This document shows positions 12,929 through 64,000 of a stretch of DNA of 64,000 bases, one piece after another (position 1 is the first letter of the stretch; every line of letters starts with the position of its first letter). This stretch comes from Fidelibacterota bacterium (lineage in GTDB: Bacteria; Fidelibacterota; Marinisomatia; Marinisomatales; TCS55): contig JAPYRG010000001.1 in assembly GCA_029936965.1 (NCBI GenBank), positions 13,588 through 77,587 of the forward strand, written 5' to 3'. The notes beneath the pieces were generated by a model, which worked only from the letters and a program-made list of their open reading frames with translations, ran no database searches and was not told the DNA's origin. The position numbers and the translations under genes were made by a program.

Positions 12929-14819
12929 TTTGACAGGGTTTAATAATATAGACACAATAGTTGTTGGTGGCGGACACGCTGGGGTTGAAGCTGCGTTGGC
13001 AGCCGCAAGAACGGGCTGTAAGGTTCTCTTGATTACAATGAACAAACAAACAATTGGCAGGATGTCTTGTAACCCATCAATTGGTGGATTAGCAAAAGGA
13101 CAAATGGTAAGGGAGATAGACGCGCTGGGTGGCGCTATGGGTAAAGCAGCCGATATAACAGGAACACAGTTTAAACTTCTAAACAAATCAAAAGGTAGGG
13201 CTGTTTGGTCTCCTAGAGCGCAAGTTGATAAGAGAGAGTATGAAAAACATATTCATAAAACAGTTACAAGCCATAACAATATCACGGTTGTCGAAGGTGA
13301 GGTTGTTTCACCTATAATCAAAAAAGGGCGTGCGGCTGGTGTAACAATGTCAAACCAAGATAAAATTATAAGCAAGTCTGTAGTTTTAACAAACGGTACT
13401 TTTTTAAATGGATTAATACATATTGGTGATAAAAAAATACCAGCGGGAAGAATGGGTGAGGTAAGATCAGAAGGCATCACAGAGTCTCTGTCTTCTTTAG
13501 GTTTTAAACATGGAAGACTAAAAACAGGTACACCACCAAGGCTTAACAGGGAAACTATAAATTGGTCTATATTAGATATAATAACCGGCGATGAGAAACC
13601 AGCTCCGTTTTCACATTTTCATTCTTTATTTAACCCGCCCAATACACCAAGCCACAGCGTCAACACAAACGAGCGTGTTCATAATATAATATGGGAAAAC
13701 ATAAACAGGTCTCCTATGTATTCTGGTGAAATATTGGGCGTTGGGCCAAGATATTGTCCATCAATTGAAGATAAAATAAACAGGTTTAAAGAAAGAAACG
13801 CTCATCGTCTTATTTGTGAACCAGAGTGGAAAAACTCAGATCAAATATACCTTAATGGTTTTTCAACAAGTCTTCCAGAAAAAATACAACTTGAAGCCTT
13901 ACAAAAAATAAAAGGCTTTGAGAGCGTTTCCCTTATTAAACCAGGATATGCGATAGAATACGATTATTTTTTTCCAAACCAATTAAAAACCACACTAGAA
14001 ACCAAAACATACAAAAACCTATATTTAGCAGGTCAAATTAATGGCACCTCGGGGTATGAAGAGGCGGCTATTCAAGGATTAATTGCTGGCGCAAACGCTG
14101 GTCTGTTTTGCCTTGGATTGGGCCCTATAACTTTAAGCAGGTCCGATGCTTATGGTGGAGTTTTAATAGACGACCTAATAACCAAAAGCACTCCTGAGCC
14201 CTATAGAATGTTTACATCAAGAGCAGAAAACAGGCTAATTCTTCGGTTTACTAACGCAAACAAGAGACTGTCATTAAAAGCCTTTAGCTCAATGTTAATT
14301 AATAAAAAACAACACAACACAATGCAGGAACAAACCAAAGAAGTAATGGCGCTAATCAAATACTGCGACAAAACAATAACAACCACACAAGCAAATCCCA
14401 TATTAAAAAAGATAAATGAGAAAGAAATAACACAAAAAACAAAACTTAAAGAACTAATTAAAAGACCTTCGGTTAGTTTAGAAATGTTTGTTTCAATGAA
14501 AACTAAAAAACTTAAGGTTCGTCAACCTTATGTTGATGAAGTTGTTTTAGAAGCCGACACAGAAATTAAATACAGTGGCTATATTCGCCGAATTAACAAA
14601 CAAACAAAAAAAATATTAAACAATGAAGCGTTATTGCTAAACAGTGAAATAAAATATGATAACATATCCGGTCTATCCAAAGAAGCCCAAGAGAAACTAA
14701 ACAAATCAAAACCTGAAAACATGGGACAGGCAATGAAAATTTCAGGCGTTACAATATCTGATGCTGCGGTACTTTCAGTGTATATTAGCAAAAAACAACG
14801 TGTTTCACGTGAAACATAA
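12915..14819 (+). CDS. mnmG: tRNA uridine-5-carboxymethylaminomethyl modification enzyme MnmG (GidA)
   Basis: The FAD-dependent partner of MnmE in U34 modification. The protein has 634 residues. The dinucleotide-binding motif VVGGGHAGVEAALAAARTG is near the N-terminus, followed by SCNPSIGGLAKGQMVREIDALGG and the MnmG signature GPRYCPSIEDKI. The C-terminal helical MnmE/tRNA-binding domain ends KKQRVSRET. The chosen GTG at 12915 overlaps mnmE by 14 bases; a TTG at 12930 is an equally plausible start. The last codons coincide with a perfect parS site, and the stop overlaps the ATG of mfd by one base (TAATG). The usual neighbour rsmG (gidB) is absent here. Confidence 0.96.
   Translation: MLGNSLTGFNNIDTIVVGGGHAGVEAALAAARTGCKVLLITMNKQTIGRMSCNPSIGGLAKGQMVREIDALGGAMGKAADITGTQFKLLNKSKGRAVWSPRAQVDKREYEKHIHKTVTSHNNITVVEGEVVSPIIKKGRAAGVTMSNQDKIISKSVVLTNGTFLNGLIHIGDKKIPAGRMGEVRSEGITESLSSLGFKHGRLKTGTPPRLNRETINWSILDIITGDEKPAPFSHFHSLFNPPNTPSHSVNTNERVHNIIWENINRSPMYSGEILGVGPRYCPSIEDKINRFKERNAHRLICEPEWKNSDQIYLNGFSTSLPEKIQLEALQKIKGFESVSLIKPGYAIEYDYFFPNQLKTTLETKTYKNLYLAGQINGTSGYEEAAIQGLIAGANAGLFCLGLGPITLSRSDAYGGVLIDDLITKSTPEPYRMFTSRAENRLILRFTNANKRLSLKAFSSMLINKKQHNTMQEQTKEVMALIKYCDKTITTTQANPILKKINEKEITQKTKLKELIKRPSVSLEMFVSMKTKKLKVRQPYVDEVVLEADTEIKYSGYIRRINKQTKKILNNEALLLNSEIKYDNISGLSKEAQEKLNKSKPENMGQAMKISGVTISDAAVLSVYISKKQRVSRET
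14801..14816. promoter_or_regulatory. parS centromere site
   Basis: TGTTTCACGTGAAACA, a 16-base perfect palindrome identical to the consensus ParB-binding parS sequence. It encodes the terminal Val-Ser-Arg-Glu-Thr of MnmG. parS sites normally cluster near oriC and load ParB for chromosome segregation. parA and parB themselves are not in this window. No second perfect copy was seen. Confidence 0.9.
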
Positions 14820-56801: not shown

Positions 56802-58124
<1,323 letters not shown>

Positions 58125-58159: not shown

Positions 58160-58188
58160 ATTATAGGGTGAATATATAAGAGTATCAA
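58160..58188 (-). promoter_or_regulatory. Promoter of the purine operon
   Basis: Minus-strand TTGATA (58188-58183), a 17-base spacer and TATAAT (58165-58160): a near-consensus sigma-70-type promoter. The transcript would start about 58 bases before the purA ATG at 58094 and run through all twelve genes to 44068, since overlaps and short gaps leave no terminator. No purine riboswitch-like fold was recognised in this short leader. Confidence 0.65.
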
Positions 58189-58243: not shown

Positions 58244-58265
58244 GGTCTGTAAATATTTACAGACC
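58244..58265. promoter_or_regulatory. Perfect 22-bp palindromic operator
   Basis: The half-site GGTCTGTAAAT is followed immediately by its exact reverse complement. The palindrome sits between divergent purA and the deiodinase-like gene, about 55 bases upstream of the purA -35 box and 40 bases before the deiodinase-like start. It contains TTTACA, a possible -35 box for the rightward gene. Its position favours a repressor or activator site for a dimeric regulator rather than a terminator. Related TGTAAATATT sequences recur at 59.4-59.6 kb. Confidence 0.65.
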
Positions 58266-58304
58266 ACTATGATATAGAACTAAATATGTTGTAAATTAAA
58301 TTGG

Positions 58305-58970
58305 GTGAAAAACAGGATGGGATTTAAGAAATATAAACATAATACCATAAATAACAGTGCCCGGGTGGAGCAAAGCAAGGAGTTCAAAAAACAAATTAAG
58401 TCTCGTAGGTCGGTCCGTGACTTTTCAAAAAAGGATGTTTCACAAGAAATAATAGAAAATATTATAAGTATTGCAGCAAGCGCGCCATCAGGCGCAAATA
58501 AAGAACCGTGGTTTTTTTCAATAGTAAAAGACAGCAAGACAAAGAGAAAAATACGAATAGCGGCTGAAAAAGAAGAAAAATCATTTTATACACAACGCGC
58601 TCCACAAAGTTGGTTAGATGATTTAAATAAGTTTGGCACAGATTGGAACAAAGAATTCTTAGAAATAGCACCCTACATAATAGTGGTGTTTAAGCAAATA
58701 TATGATTTGAATAACGGACAAAAGTATAAGAATTATTATGTGAATGAATCGGTTGGCATCGCATGCGGATTTTTATTAGCCGCAATTCAGAGGGCGGGAT
58801 TAGTGGCATTAACACACACCCCCTCGCCCATGGGTTTTCTTGAAAGAATATGTAAACGACCTGACAACGAACGCGCCTACTTATTGATTCCAGTCGGGCT
58901 GCCCAGTCCAGATGCCCGGGTTCCAATATTAAAGAAAAAAAAATTTAATGAATACTGTCAGATAATATAA
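58305..58970 (+). CDS. Iodotyrosine-deiodinase-like nitroreductase-family flavoprotein
   Basis: A 221-residue FMN protein (GTG at 58305; ATG at 58317 is the alternative start). The nitroreductase-fold N-terminus is RRSVRDFSKKDVSQEIIENIISIAASAPSGANKEPWFF. The central lid matches iodotyrosine deiodinases. Glu91, Tyr95 and Lys116 are spaced exactly as human Glu157, Tyr161 and Lys182, the residues that clamp the halotyrosine zwitterion. The segment DDLNKFGTDWNKEFLEIAPYIIVVFKQ and the end ACGFLLAAIQRAGLVALTHTPSPMGFL..LIPVGLPSPDARVP also follow that subfamily. Known members reductively remove iodide, bromide or chloride from tyrosine. Halotyrosine dehalogenation is therefore a well-supported but unproven function. 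The next gene begins 14 bases downstream. Confidence 0.9.
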   Translation: MKNRMGFKKYKHNTINNSARVEQSKEFKKQIKSRRSVRDFSKKDVSQEIIENIISIAASAPSGANKEPWFFSIVKDSKTKRKIRIAAEKEEKSFYTQRAPQSWLDDLNKFGTDWNKEFLEIAPYIIVVFKQIYDLNNGQKYKNYYVNESVGIACGFLLAAIQRAGLVALTHTPSPMGFLERICKRPDNERAYLLIPVGLPSPDARVPILKKKKFNEYCQII

Positions 58971-58984
58971 GAGGAGTGTATATA

Positions 58985-59332
58985 ATGTGTATTACTGTAT
59001 ATCATAACAATAGATGAGGTAAGAGTAGGAAGGTACTCCAATTATTGCGTGACAATAATACCAAATTTACTACTATTGAATACTTAAATGATCCACCCAG
59101 TGTAGCACGCTTAGGTAAGATATGTAAATATTTATCTATTCTACCAATTGATTTAGTTCGTACTTATGATAATAATTTTAAAGACTTAAAAGTAGATATT
59201 AATAATATGAATTTTGATCAAATATTAGAACTTATAGCTAATAACCCTAAAATACTTGAAAGACCAATTATAATTAAAAAGCATAGCGGAGTTATTGGTA
59301 GACCGCCCGAAAACGTCAAAAAGTTGTTTTAA
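58985..59332 (+). CDS. ArsC-family thioredoxin-fold reductase with in-frame TGA at the catalytic residue (putative selenoprotein)
   Basis: From ATG 58985 to TAA at 59330-59332 the frame is open except for one TGA at 59015-59017 (codon 11). The ATG has AGGAG eight bases upstream. Read through, the product has 115 residues, the exact length of ArsC proteins. It begins MCITVYHNNR, then the TGA residue, then GKSRKVLQLL. This aligns with E. coli ArsC ITIYHNPACGTSRNTL, placing TGA on the catalytic Cys12. The three ArsC arginines are present as Arg59 (LVRTY), Arg93 (LERPII) and Arg106 (GRPPE). A nonsense mutation in the catalytic codon alone, with everything else intact, is unlikely; selenocysteine is the simplest explanation. 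TGA serves as a normal stop elsewhere here. The substrate may be arsenate or another oxidised compound. The alternative is a recent pseudogene or read error, or translation only from TTG 59045. Confidence 0.82.
59015..59059 (+). promoter_or_regulatory. Putative bacterial SECIS: TGA followed by two hairpins
   Basis: Downstream of the TGA are two perfect stems. The first is GAGTA (59023-59027), loop GGAAGG, TACTC (59034-59038). The second is ATTATTG (59041-59047), loop CGTGA (59048-59052), CAATAAT (59053-59059). Known bacterial SECIS elements have a short apical loop with a G in the first two positions, about 16-37 bases after the UGA. The second hairpin fits, with its loop 30 bases downstream. 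The first has the better GG loop but starts closer than usual. Which one SelB would use is uncertain. Confidence 0.55.
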
Positions 59333-59642
59333 TGGCATCTTTTAATAATACAAGTCATTATTTAAAGCTATATAATATATTATCGCACACCTTTAATTGT
59401 TTACAGATATCAATCTTATGATAAACATATATCACTATTGTAAATCTATATATTGATAAATATTACAATCCCTGTATTAAATATTATTAAATCTACCGAA
59501 GATCTTATCTGTAAATATTGCTATAATTATAATTTATATTTTTTTATCTATAACTATTATTTTACAGATCATACCCACTTTATGCTTATTTTTTTATGAA
59601 CCTTTATAAATATTACAATGTTAAAATTAATTTAAACAGTTC

Positions 59643-59670: not shown

Positions 59671-59764
59671 TTTGCTAAAATTACTTATTATAAGTGATTT
59701 TTTGCGGAGACCACATACTATTAATGAGCTATAAGCACCATATAAGAGGCTTTGGGTTAAATAA

Positions 59765-59800: not shown

Positions 59801-62800
59801 ATGGCCTCGGAACAAAAAGACATTTTTCGTATTGATAACATTAAATTGTTAAAGGTCATTTCTGACCCTATTCGTAAACAAATTATTGATGTTCTTTATG
59901 ATGAACCTCTGACAGCTTCTGAGATTGCTGATGAAATTAGTTTTCCCAAAGATAAAATTTATTACCATATAAAAAAATTACAATCTTCTGGAATTCTTAT
60001 TATAGCCGAATCAGAAAAAGTTAAAGGCATTACACAAAACAAATTTATTAACGTTGCTGAAAAATTTGAAATCGATGAATCATTGTTAGGAGATCAGCCG
60101 TCTCCACTTATAAAGAAATCATCAACTAAGACTATTGAAAAGAAACTTGACGAAAATTCCGATGCAGAGTCTATCCAGGATGATGTAGATGAAACGGAAT
60201 CTACTAAATCTGACGACAATCCCTTATTGGCTTCGCTATTAAAAGCAAAGGGAAAGCCGGCCGGTCAAATTCCAGATAGCTTCTCTACAACGGGGCAAGG
60301 TCAAATAGATGAGGGCACTCCACCACCACAAAGTGGCGATGGGCCTGTTAGAATTATTGCCGATCGTAGACGTGGAGGAGATAGACGCGCTACACTTGAA
60401 CAAAGAGTTGGTAAGGAACGTAGATTACGACAAAAAAGAAATTTTGAAGGTGGCGAAAAAAGAGAAGGAAAAGAAAGAAGAAAAGGTATTGAAAAGAGAG
60501 TATTATCTGATAGAAGAAAGGCTATTGATAGAAGGCTAGAAGCAGAGAAGAAAAAAAAGAAATCACTCGAATCTGCTGCTCCGATTAAAAGATATAAGCC
60601 GAAAAAACAATCCGCTAGAATCCTAGAATCAGTAAAGATGAATTTAAACGGCTTAAATGAGGCGATGACCTTTATACATACAGGTGATAATGTAACTTTT
60701 CTACAGGCTACAAGAAAACTTGACACCTTTGAAATTCAACAAACAAAGATTTACGATCTTCCTTATCAATATAATGGACATGCAATTAAGACACTTCCTG
60801 ATTTAATCAAACATGTATATGCAAACTATGTAGATCCTAAAAAAACCAGAAGCCATTATTTAGCGATGTATTCGACTAGATATAATTATGAGATGACTTT
60901 TGTTGCTACACCTGAGGGTGGTGCAAAAAAAGATTTTAAGGACTACTTATACTATAATCTAACTAAATCGTACAATTTAAAATTAGAAGAGTCTATTGTT
61001 GATTGGTCTTTTAATGATAAATATGAAAATAATGCTGTAGTTTGCTACTCCGCACTCGGGGCGACCATTCAAAATGACTATACCAACCTAACCGCCGCAG
61101 GGATACAGCCCAGGTATTCCACCGCTTTCCCAAAAATATTACACAATATATATAGCTATGGAGCCGGGACTACTGGCTCGGGTAATGCATTAATAATATA
61201 TATAGATGAGAGAAGAACGAATTTAGCATTGGTTCAAAATCAGCAATTAGTGGAATCAAGATATTTTTGGATTGGTGTAAGGGATTTTTATTTACCTCTT
61301 TGTAAAATGTTTAAAGTTGGACGAAAGGTTATTGATGTCGATAGAAAACTCGCAGAGGATTTTCTCCTTAATTATGGAATAGAAATGGATGAAAGCATTA
61401 TAGATACAGGAGAAAGCATACCTTGGATAGATGCTCAACAGCTTCTAGGAACACCAGTAGCTAAATTTTCAAAGGAACTTGATAATTCAATGAAATATTT
61501 TTCTGACGTAAGAAGCACGATATCAAATAAAATGTTAGAAATTGACAATGTCTATCTTGGCGGCCCGGGCAGCCACATCAAAAATATAAGCACTATAGCC
61601 CAAAGAACTGTTGGAAAAGCAGTGGAAGACATTGATGGATTATATGCAGACCTGTTTAAGGCTATGAACGTAACAAAGCAGCAGAAAAAGTTATTAAAGA
61701 ATAGAGATTCCATGTTGCAGGATCGCGAAAGAATTACTTCATCAATTAATAGGTCTCGTGATGATGTAATCCAATTAGATAAGATGATAAGAGCCTTTAA
61801 GGATCCAGAGGCAATCGCTGTTGAGATAGATAAGCAAATGCGCAATAAGCAGACATATTTCAAGGATATTGCAGTAGCGAATAATGCATTAGAAACAAAT
61901 ACCCAGGATATTAATCACTTAACTACGGAATACAATAACGAAGAAAAGAAGACCAGAGCAGATCTTGAGAAGGCAGATAAAGATCTTAAAAAACAGCAAA
62001 GTAAGGCAATGCCTATATATACTGAGGTAGATCTGATTGAAAAAAAGGTTGAAAAATTAAATGCGCCAATTAATGCGAAGAAAAAGAAATCTGCTGTTAT
62101 AGAGAAAAAATTACGCATGAAGCTTAAAGACGTAAGTCGAGAAAAAAAATTAGAACAACAGGAGTTACGCAAATTAAAAGATAGCATTAGTCTTTGTGAA
62201 TCAAGAATTAAAGATATGGAAAAAGATATTGAGCATCATATTGAAGAACAGGATGAAACAACTGGAGATTTAAATTTTCAATTTAGCCAACGGGATGAGT
62301 ATGAAATAAAGCCGAGGAAACGGCAAGTGGTGTTTAAAAAACAACAACGAGAGATAGATCAGAAAGAGTTTGAATTAAGAAAACAAAAGAAAAAGACCAT
62401 AATAGATATGAAAGTCGATGCTGGGACTATTCAGGATCTTAGCAAAAGGTTGGGTATTATAAATGAGCGAATAGAAGCGGTGAATCATGAATTAAATGAT
62501 GCAGAATTTGAATTTGAGAGTTGCTCATCGGATTTACAGGAAAATTTGTCTGCTATTGATAAAAATGAAGCAGATTTGCGTACGGCAGTAAGCGATTATG
62601 AAAAAACGCGCTTGGAGCATGACGCCACGCTACGCTTTATAAGAAAAAAGATTGATAAGCTTGATAATAAAGTAAACAAGATAATTGAAGCATATGAACA
62701 AGCACAAGGCAAAGAAGAAGAACATGAAGCTGAAAACGCCGCAACAGAGCTATCAGTTAAGTATCAAATACAGTCCTTCAAAAACGAAATAGGGAAAATG

Positions 62801-64000
62801 TCTTCATCCAGAGATAAAATAGTTACTTCTAAAAATAAACAAGAGTCAGTTATTAAATCAGATGAAAAGAATATTAAGCATAATAATAAAAAATTATCAT
62901 CTTTAAACAAGGATCAGGATTCCTTAGATAATGAGATTGAAATACTGGAAGCTGATCAAACAACTGCCACCGTAACGATCGATGCGCTTTCCTTATCAAT
63001 AAATGATCGAAAGCAAGAAATTGAAAAAATACAAAAAATCTATTTTTTTGAATTAGAAACAGCAAATAAAGTAATAGCATCTGCAAATTGGAGATTACCA
63101 GATTTTCGCAGAAAACTACCAACAAGCGTATCGGAGACTGAAAGCTTAGCTGATCGATTTAATAATGTAAGCTTACAAGAACAAGATGAGAGGATCATTT
63201 ATGCTAATATAAATGAATCAATTAATAGAGTAAACGAAATGACGCCTAAGTTAGTTCTTATAAAAGAACATGTTGGTGAATTAATTGCTTTAGACGGTGA
63301 ACTCTTAGCATTAGAAAAGGATCAAAAATCCAAAGAAACAACGATTAACAACATTGATGATAAAATTGAGAAATTACATAAGAAGCTCTCTGATTTATCT
63401 GCAAAGATAGAAACCTTAAGTAAAGATATAAAAGACAGAGAAATACGTCATAAAATAGAAAGAGACTCTCTTGTTCTTACACAAAAAAGATTAACAAAAG
63501 GCGAAACAGATCTTGAACGATCACAGGAACATTATAGTGGTTTAAAAGAAATAAAAGATAAAGCAATAAAAGACAGAGATGAGAACATAGCAGGCTTAGA
63601 AAAACAATTAGAGGAATTAAACAATCAATATGAAAACCTGCGAGACCTACAAAAAGAACATAAAGAAACCCTTAACGAACTTTTAAATATTCGTAAATCA
63701 ATTGCGAACCAAAAGGCACGTATTAACAATATAGAAAAAGAAGAGTCGGAACAAGAAAACGGATACAGTCGGTTAAGTACTTTACTTACATCTCAGATAG
63801 ACCAACTAAATAACTCGTCTGAAAGAATTGAGTCAGATAATCGCGAGTTGGAGCTTCAGATTGTATTAGAAAGAACAAGGATAAGCGAGCTTAAGCCAGA
63901 AATCAATGAGTGGACGAAAGAGAAGAGATCCCTACAAAAAGAACTTGATTTAATATCAAAACAAAAAATATCATATGCGGAAACCACGAATAAGAATAAA
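59801..64000 (+). CDS. Giant protein: ArsR-like winged helix, basic linker, PilM-like actin fold and long coiled coil (3' end beyond window)
   Basis: The frame is open for all 1400 codons to the window edge. Residues about 18-80 are an ArsR-type winged helix-turn-helix (VISDPIRKQIIDVLYDEPLTASEIADEISFPKDKIYYHIKKLQSSGIL). Residues about 100-180 are acidic and Ser/Gly-rich. About 181-253 are extremely Arg/Lys-rich (DRRRGGDRRA and several KERR/DRR units). About 271-625 resemble PilM/GspL-type actin-like domains: a mid-domain strand GNALIIYIDERRTNLALVQNQQLVESRYFWIGV and an adenosine-type motif VYLGGPGSHIKNI near 585-597. The phosphate-2 motif is DERRTN instead of DxGxxxT, so ATP hydrolysis is doubtful. 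From about 625 onward the chain is a heptad-rich coiled coil like SMC or myosin tails. There is no signal peptide. A DNA- or envelope-linked structural protein is conceivable; the true function is unknown. Confidence 0.85.
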   Translation, partial: MASEQKDIFRIDNIKLLKVISDPIRKQIIDVLYDEPLTASEIADEISFPKDKIYYHIKKLQSSGILIIAESEKVKGITQNKFINVAEKFEIDESLLGDQPSPLIKKSSTKTIEKKLDENSDAESIQDDVDETESTKSDDNPLLASLLKAKGKPAGQIPDSFSTTGQGQIDEGTPPPQSGDGPVRIIADRRRGGDRRATLEQRVGKERRLRQKRNFEGGEKREGKERRKGIEKRVLSDRRKAIDRRLEAEKKKKKSLESAAPIKRYKPKKQSARILESVKMNLNGLNEAMTFIHTGDNVTFLQATRKLDTFEIQQTKIYDLPYQYNGHAIKTLPDLIKHVYANYVDPKKTRSHYLAMYSTRYNYEMTFVATPEGGAKKDFKDYLYYNLTKSYNLKLEESIVDWSFNDKYENNAVVCYSALGATIQNDYTNLTAAGIQPRYSTAFPKILHNIYSYGAGTTGSGNALIIYIDERRTNLALVQNQQLVESRYFWIGVRDFYLPLCKMFKVGRKVIDVDRKLAEDFLLNYGIEMDESIIDTGESIPWIDAQQLLGTPVAKFSKELDNSMKYFSDVRSTISNKMLEIDNVYLGGPGSHIKNISTIAQRTVGKAVEDIDGLYADLFKAMNVTKQQKKLLKNRDSMLQDRERITSSINRSRDDVIQLDKMIRAFKDPEAIAVEIDKQMRNKQTYFKDIAVANNALETNTQDINHLTTEYNNEEKKTRADLEKADKDLKKQQSKAMPIYTEVDLIEKKVEKLNAPINAKKKKSAVIEKKLRMKLKDVSREKKLEQQELRKLKDSISLCESRIKDMEKDIEHHIEEQDETTGDLNFQFSQRDEYEIKPRKRQVVFKKQQREIDQKEFELRKQKKKTIIDMKVDAGTIQDLSKRLGIINERIEAVNHELNDAEFEFESCSSDLQENLSAIDKNEADLRTAVSDYEKTRLEHDATLRFIRKKIDKLDNKVNKIIEAYEQAQGKEEEHEAENAATELSVKYQIQSFKNEIGKMSSSRDKIVTSKNKQESVIKSDEKNIKHNNKKLSSLNKDQDSLDNEIEILEADQTTATVTIDALSLSINDRKQEIEKIQKIYFFELETANKVIASANWRLPDFRRKLPTSVSETESLADRFNNVSLQEQDERIIYANINESINRVNEMTPKLVLIKEHVGELIALDGELLALEKDQKSKETTINNIDDKIEKLHKKLSDLSAKIETLSKDIKDREIRHKIERDSLVLTQKRLTKGETDLERSQEHYSGLKEIKDKAIKDRDENIAGLEKQLEELNNQYENLRDLQKEHKETLNELLNIRKSIANQKARINNIEKEESEQENGYSRLSTLLTSQIDQLNNSSERIESDNRELELQIVLERTRISELKPEINEWTKEKRSLQKELDLISKQKISYAETTNKNK

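Follow-up and report, generated by a model that had tools for sequence, protein, structure and literature searches.

A palindrome between purA and a deiodinase-like gene

The 222-bp gap between purA and the gene of a deiodinase-like flavoprotein contains the perfect, spacerless 22-bp palindrome GGTCTGTAAATATTTACAGACC (58244..58265, no strand assigned), which we propose as an operator. All positions refer to the window, the whole stretch of 64 kb of DNA that was analyzed. As judged from the sequence and its surroundings, the palindrome is probably the operator of a dimeric DNA-binding protein which controls, and most likely represses, the rightward operon. Since its sequence is almost unchanged in both close relatives that are readable at this place, it most likely serves as the site to which a regulator binds. 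The palindrome is conserved, occurs once and overlaps with a hexamer resembling a -35 element. A conserved single-target site of this type is most likely an operator of an ordinary kind. For an uncultured marine phylum it would nevertheless be a concrete single-target operator, located in front of genes for a deiodinase-like flavoprotein and a selenocysteine-type ArsC. Used as a bait, its sequence would make the regulator, the signal and the physiological role of the operon accessible to testing.

The arms GGTCTGTAAAT (58244-58254) and ATTTACAGACC (58255-58265) are perfect inverted repeats of eleven bases with zero spacer, as the preliminary description had stated. No other spacerless palindrome in the window has arms longer than 8 bases; arms of 8 were found in two others and arms of 9 in none. 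Among 20,000 first-order Markov shuffles of the 222-bp purA/nitroreductase gap, arms of 11 bases appeared in 5, arms of at least 9 in 56 and arms of at least 8 in 204. The palindrome thus exceeds chance for its gap, and the second statement of the preliminary description, that it lies beyond chance in so short a gap, was confirmed as well. For a genome of 2.1 Mb, a rough estimate from composition gives about one such palindrome, which would be compatible with a chance or neutral remnant. However, the arms but not the flanks are kept at the same place in three species. Due to this conservation a chance origin is very unlikely, unless the genomes are much closer to each other than the protein identity of the deiodinase-like gene among them (68-79%) suggests.

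Conservation within the genus and beyond

The genome of the window (G000; 2.14 Mb, 50 contigs, 96.65% complete) has its closest relatives by protein similarity among Candidatus Neomarinimicrobiota (Marinimicrobia) MAGs. The genus set consisted of six genomes (G000-G005), and the purA/nitroreductase gap was readable in G000, in G002 (the gap of loci L006 and L035) and in G005 (the gap of L007 and L036). All three readable gaps contained GTCTGTAA-N4-TTACAGAC, a conserved core of 20 bp (58245..58264 in the window, no strand assigned). The core was set at 20 instead of 22 bp, leaving out the outermost G/C pair: in the alignment, this base pair and the central bases differ among the three species. 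When the three gaps were aligned as suggested earlier, the arms were identical in 16/16 columns, compared to 77/183 of the other ungapped columns. In the three loci the core lies 52, 42 and 54 bp before the ATG. This evidence for conservation spans three species; a lack of conservation in relatives, named earlier as a finding against the proposed role, was not observed. In G001, G003 and G004 no match to the deiodinase-like gene was found, while purA was unmatched in G001 and G004 and present as a piece at a contig end in G003. Since neither the gene nor an intact purA could be located there, the lack of the palindrome in these genomes is uninformative.

The same alignment bears on the role that the palindrome could play as an RNA hairpin in the rightward 5' leader. 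In the minimum-energy fold it forms a stem of 9 pairs in the window, 8 in L036 and 6 in L035 (8 in the centroid), each with a four-base loop, and the whole folded stretches had z values of -3.68 (window), -1.55 (L036) and -2.34 (L035). However, none of the 8 core pairs showed a compensatory change in the three species despite diverged flanks. Furthermore, judging from the promoter that matches best in both relatives, transcription would presumably start downstream of the palindrome. We therefore regard a function as RNA hairpin as decidedly unlikely.

Outside the genus the motif was absent. The 350 bases upstream of the gene were scanned in 110 loci, some of which may represent one genome fetched twice. 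Nine exact matches were obtained, which are the three gaps fetched repeatedly; the other 101 upstream stretches, with little upstream DNA in L066 and L072, had at least 5 mismatches to the motif. In nine loci of other genera the scan covered all of the DNA between purA and the gene, and the best match had 4 to 7 mismatches. The putative circuit would therefore be at most genus-wide.

A longer conserved run occurs in the gap just once, namely TGGTTTGGTAAA immediately upstream of the purA start, and it represents a separate element. On the minus strand, TTTACCAAACCA (window 58107-58118, 24 to 13 bases before the purA start) was identical in the three genus genomes and had at least 4 mismatches within the 150 bases before purA in 9 other relatives.

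Promoters in the divergent gap

The preliminary description had placed the palindrome over a plausible -35 element of the rightward operon and upstream of a near-consensus purine promoter, and both elements were found. The proposed -35 hexamer of the deiodinase-like operon, TTTACA (58256..58261, plus strand), is located within the right arm. With spacers of 16-19 allowed, the best rightward promoter match in both relatives was TTTACA-19-TATTAT (10/12), for which the right arm supplies the TTTACA. In the window, the hexamer at spacing 19 is TAAATA (58281-58286), a weak -10, and the best rightward matches listed do not use the arm. The weak -10 counts against a firm assignment of the -35, and 19 bp is a long promoter spacer.

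The leftward promoter of purA, TTGATA-17-TATAAT (58160..58188, minus strand), matched in 11/12 positions. L035 carries it at the same place and with the same score; in L036 a weaker match was recognized by eye, which was not among the best listed. The palindrome and the purA -35 are separated by 55 bp. Judged by this geometry, the palindrome more probably serves to repress the rightward operon than to control purA.

An operator serving the divergent purine operon, or both operons, through a purine-responsive regulator is a minor but real possibility. The palindrome lies in the shared divergent gap upstream of the leftward purine cluster, a single target suits a genome with one purine cluster, and purA and the deiodinase-like gene are direct divergent neighbours in L037, L047 and L049 as well. 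However, the whole purA-to-gene gaps of these three loci lacked the motif (7, 7 and 6 mismatches at best), and in the window 55 bp lie between the palindrome and the purA -35. Also, the gap with further half-sites described below is located on the far side of the operon, away from purA. The E. coli PurR site differs in sequence from the palindrome, which argues against a purine regulator too.

We infer protein binding, repression and the direction of control at the palindrome as follows. A regulator dimer sitting on the two GTCTGTAA arms would cover the -35 and exclude RNA polymerase. A signal that releases the regulator would then free the rightward deiodinase-like/Sec-ArsC operon. Likely, although this is the weaker claim, the same regulator would also act on the second gap with its arm-type half-sites. 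It may be the ArsR-like giant protein encoded after that gap, which would then be autoregulated. It had been suggested that the palindrome may couple purine synthesis or a redox signal to the seleno-ArsC operon. The part concerning an operator at the putative -35 of this operon is supported by our data, while for a purine or redox signal no support was found.

Operators of dimeric winged-helix or TetR-type repressors can overlap the -35 element, and they likewise consist of an inverted repeat of about 20 bp, placed over the -35, with a single target beside a small operon. Apart from the LexA and TyrR boxes that were compared, the arm sequence is not known to fit a consensus. The TyrR box, TGTAAA-N6-TTTACA, has the same half-site letters as the window, but the spacing here is N2. 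In the relatives, TGTAAA is not retained on both sides at once.

A single target across genomes

The genome search proposed in the preliminary description revealed the exact core once in G000 and never inside genes. One copy each was present in G000, G002 and G005, always in the purA/nitroreductase gap, and none in the other 242 genomes of the phylum that were searched (245 in total, many of them incomplete). The reversed control of the core occurred once in the 245 genomes, namely in G186.

Further members of a regulon were not detected in the six genus genomes, where the core with up to 3 mismatches was not found above the reversed control (forward/control: G000 3/7, G001 1/7, G002 5/6, G003 5/6, G004 4/7, G005 7/13). 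For the gapless 18-mer with up to 3 mismatches, G000 gave 4 matches including the palindrome, versus 2 for the control; three of the 4 had 3 mismatches. The shorter form TGTAA-N4-TTACA was present in 1, 2 and 2 copies in G000, G002 and G005, with 6, 7 and 8 for its reversed control. Recurrence inside genes had been named as a finding that would speak against an operator. It does not apply to the exact core and applies only to the shorter form, of which the extra copies, one each in G002 and G005, are located inside ORFs resembling ruvB and alcohol dehydrogenase. Among virus contigs, a version of the motif with 18 fixed bases gave 0 matches.

In literature text, at least one of the motif strings was matched in 1,155 papers; the 20 of these that were listed contained short arms alone, which does not prove absence from print. 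Titles and abstract openings on selenoprotein ArsC, bacterial iodotyrosine deiodinase operons and selenocysteine in Marinimicrobia contained nothing on this locus. The same was true for the titles and abstract openings of the best 10 of 1,874 matches on binding sites or palindromes in Marinimicrobia.

Three regulator families were searched: LexA, TetR and HTH_5 (ArsR-like). A LexA (SOS) box of the type CTGT-N8-ACAG, the E. coli consensus, would fit the motif in all three species. However, the LexA DNA-binding domain PF01726 was not found in G000, which is 96.65% complete, nor in G002, G001 and G004; one each was present in G003 and G005. In addition, CTGT-W8-ACAG occurs only once elsewhere in G000 (2 sites) and not elsewhere in G002 and G005 (1 site each). 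With no LexA found in G000 and no SOS-type set of sites, a LexA box is extremely unlikely. A TetR regulator with a site at its own gene was also considered and rejected. TetR_N domains were present twice each in G000, G002 and G005, and these six loci had at least 5 mismatches to the motif. A site at the regulator gene itself is common for TetR operators but not universal.

Genes flanking the palindrome

The leftward purine cluster starts with purA (56802..58094, minus strand; Pfam PF00709, E 3.2e-165); the names of the cluster genes beyond purA were assigned by eye. To the right, the first gene (58317..58970, plus strand) codes for a nitroreductase-fold flavoprotein of 217 aa belonging to the iodotyrosine-deiodinase-like group (PF00881, E 5e-18). 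Its best solved relative is the nitroreductase 5ko7, followed by iodotyrosine dehalogenases. By comparison of the predicted N-termini, ATG 58317 (query residue 5) is a more likely start codon of this gene than GTG 58305, since an M-x-F-K start is common to the three genus loci at this point and, of the 24 matches L007-L030, 21 align from query residue 4 or from a later residue onwards.

The second gene (58985..59332, plus strand) encodes an ArsC-family protein with an in-frame TGA at the position of the catalytic Cys (PF03960, E 1.4e-15, with the TGA read through). The TGA probably encodes selenocysteine. Among the 12 distinct ArsC loci matched, 9 have TGA and 3 have Cys at this position. Folding just after the TGA was moderately better than in shuffles, with z values of -1.25, -2.60 and -2.13. 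An ArsC (pfam03960) selenoprotein with a UxxS motif is included in the selenoproteome table of the Global Ocean Sampling study (PMC2398784), and the UGKS found here conforms to this motif. As far as its table goes, that study provides a catalogue entry of the ArsC protein.

In several loci of other genera (L037, L038, L039, L042, L043, L047 and L049), the deiodinase-like gene is directly followed by one for a small protein of about 160 aa (range 158-173) that carries TGGTFDK close to its N-terminus. In the four other-genus loci where arsC was seen (L037, L042, L047, L049), this protein is located before arsC. The window has no such ORF between the deiodinase-like gene and arsC. Inspection by eye of 12 other-genus loci revealed no consistent regulator gene beside the operon; an AsnC-like gene was present in L051 and a response-regulator-like gene further downstream in L046.

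Arm-type half-sites in the second gap

The gap of 468 bp between arsC and the next gene contains three arm-type words, versus 0.06 expected, and none of 5000 shuffles reached this number. These half-sites (no strand assigned) are TTTACAGAT at 59400..59408, ATCTGTAAA at 59507..59515, located within ATCTGTAAATATT, and a further copy of TTTACAGAT at 59561..59569. L036 carries the stretch ATCTGTAAATATT in its corresponding gap too. A single arm-type word was counted in that gap (p 0.07), at another place than in the window. The shorter word ATTACAA occurs there 6 times versus 0.53 expected, but it was chosen after seeing the sequence. The longest words common to both second gaps were no longer than shuffles give.

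The distribution of the words in the window is given by TCTGTAA/TTACAGA, which is found 22 times. Of these, 17 are located in ORFs, and all 5 intergenic words fall into the gaps on either side of the operon. The palindrome itself accounts for 2 of these 5, and the two gaps make up about one third of the intergenic DNA of the window (2055 bases in total, 1377 outside them). Across G000, G005, G002 and G004, the 12-mer TCTGTAAATATT is intergenic in these two gaps only. The other 10 copies are all located in ORFs (3 in G000, 1 in G005, 4 in G002 and 2 in G004), and for several of them the gene concerned is the same in different species.

Ahead of the giant gene, the second gaps of the window (59703-59716) and of L036 both contain TGCGGAGACCACAT without any difference.

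A giant winged-helix protein as candidate binder

The second gap is followed by a gene (59801..64000 and past the end of the window, plus strand) for a giant protein of 2785 aa with an N-terminal ArsR-like winged helix. The recurrence of the arms before this gene is the most interesting lead of our analysis. The winged helix matched PF12840 (E 3.4e-11) and PF01022 (E 2.5e-06), and the giant is the sole HTH_5 match in G000 at E 0.001 or better. Sequence and fold comparisons both gave ArsR-like proteins as the closest solved relatives of the winged helix. The best Foldseek match was 1uly with E 1.8e-03, none being at 0.001 or better, and the mean pLDDT of the winged-helix model was 66.3. G005 has an ortholog in the same position after the operon, and the two proteins share an identical stretch where the recognition helix is presumed to lie. 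The giant was not found in G002, which is 70% complete and where the contig ends inside arsC. The giant ArsR-like protein is the best candidate for a putative binder of the arms. Residues 1-110 contain no Cys, and a metal- or thiol-sensing ArsR mechanism is therefore not supported.

A more far-reaching proposal is that the giant acts as a membrane-anchored, autoregulated transcription factor or DNA tether, which would bind the palindrome and the half-sites and control a selenoprotein redox operon. We consider this doubtful. For relatives of the winged helix that stand alone, found in G014 and G022, no arm-type palindrome was seen in the loci examined. A PilM/PilN-like resemblance of the giant found no support in Pfam scans of the pieces of the giant that were searched.

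Some minor observations concern the giant and its surroundings. Among 40 genomes of the family, a close ortholog was found in G005 only. The winged helix is followed by a long coiled-coil-like part, and a hydrophobic stretch near the C-terminus was recognized by eye; the protein continues in L166. The region of the giant also holds dnaA-, dnaN- and gyrase-like genes (names by eye). Near these, at the end of an mnmG-like gene (by eye), the window contains TGTTTCACGTGAAACA (14801-14816), which corresponds to the canonical ParB-binding parS site. Furthermore, a perfect spacerless palindrome of 30 bp, CGTAGAGACGTAGCATGCTACGTCTCTACG, is located at 1266-1295 of L146, flanked on one side by an aldolase-like gene (by eye) and on the other by the gene of a stand-alone winged helix.
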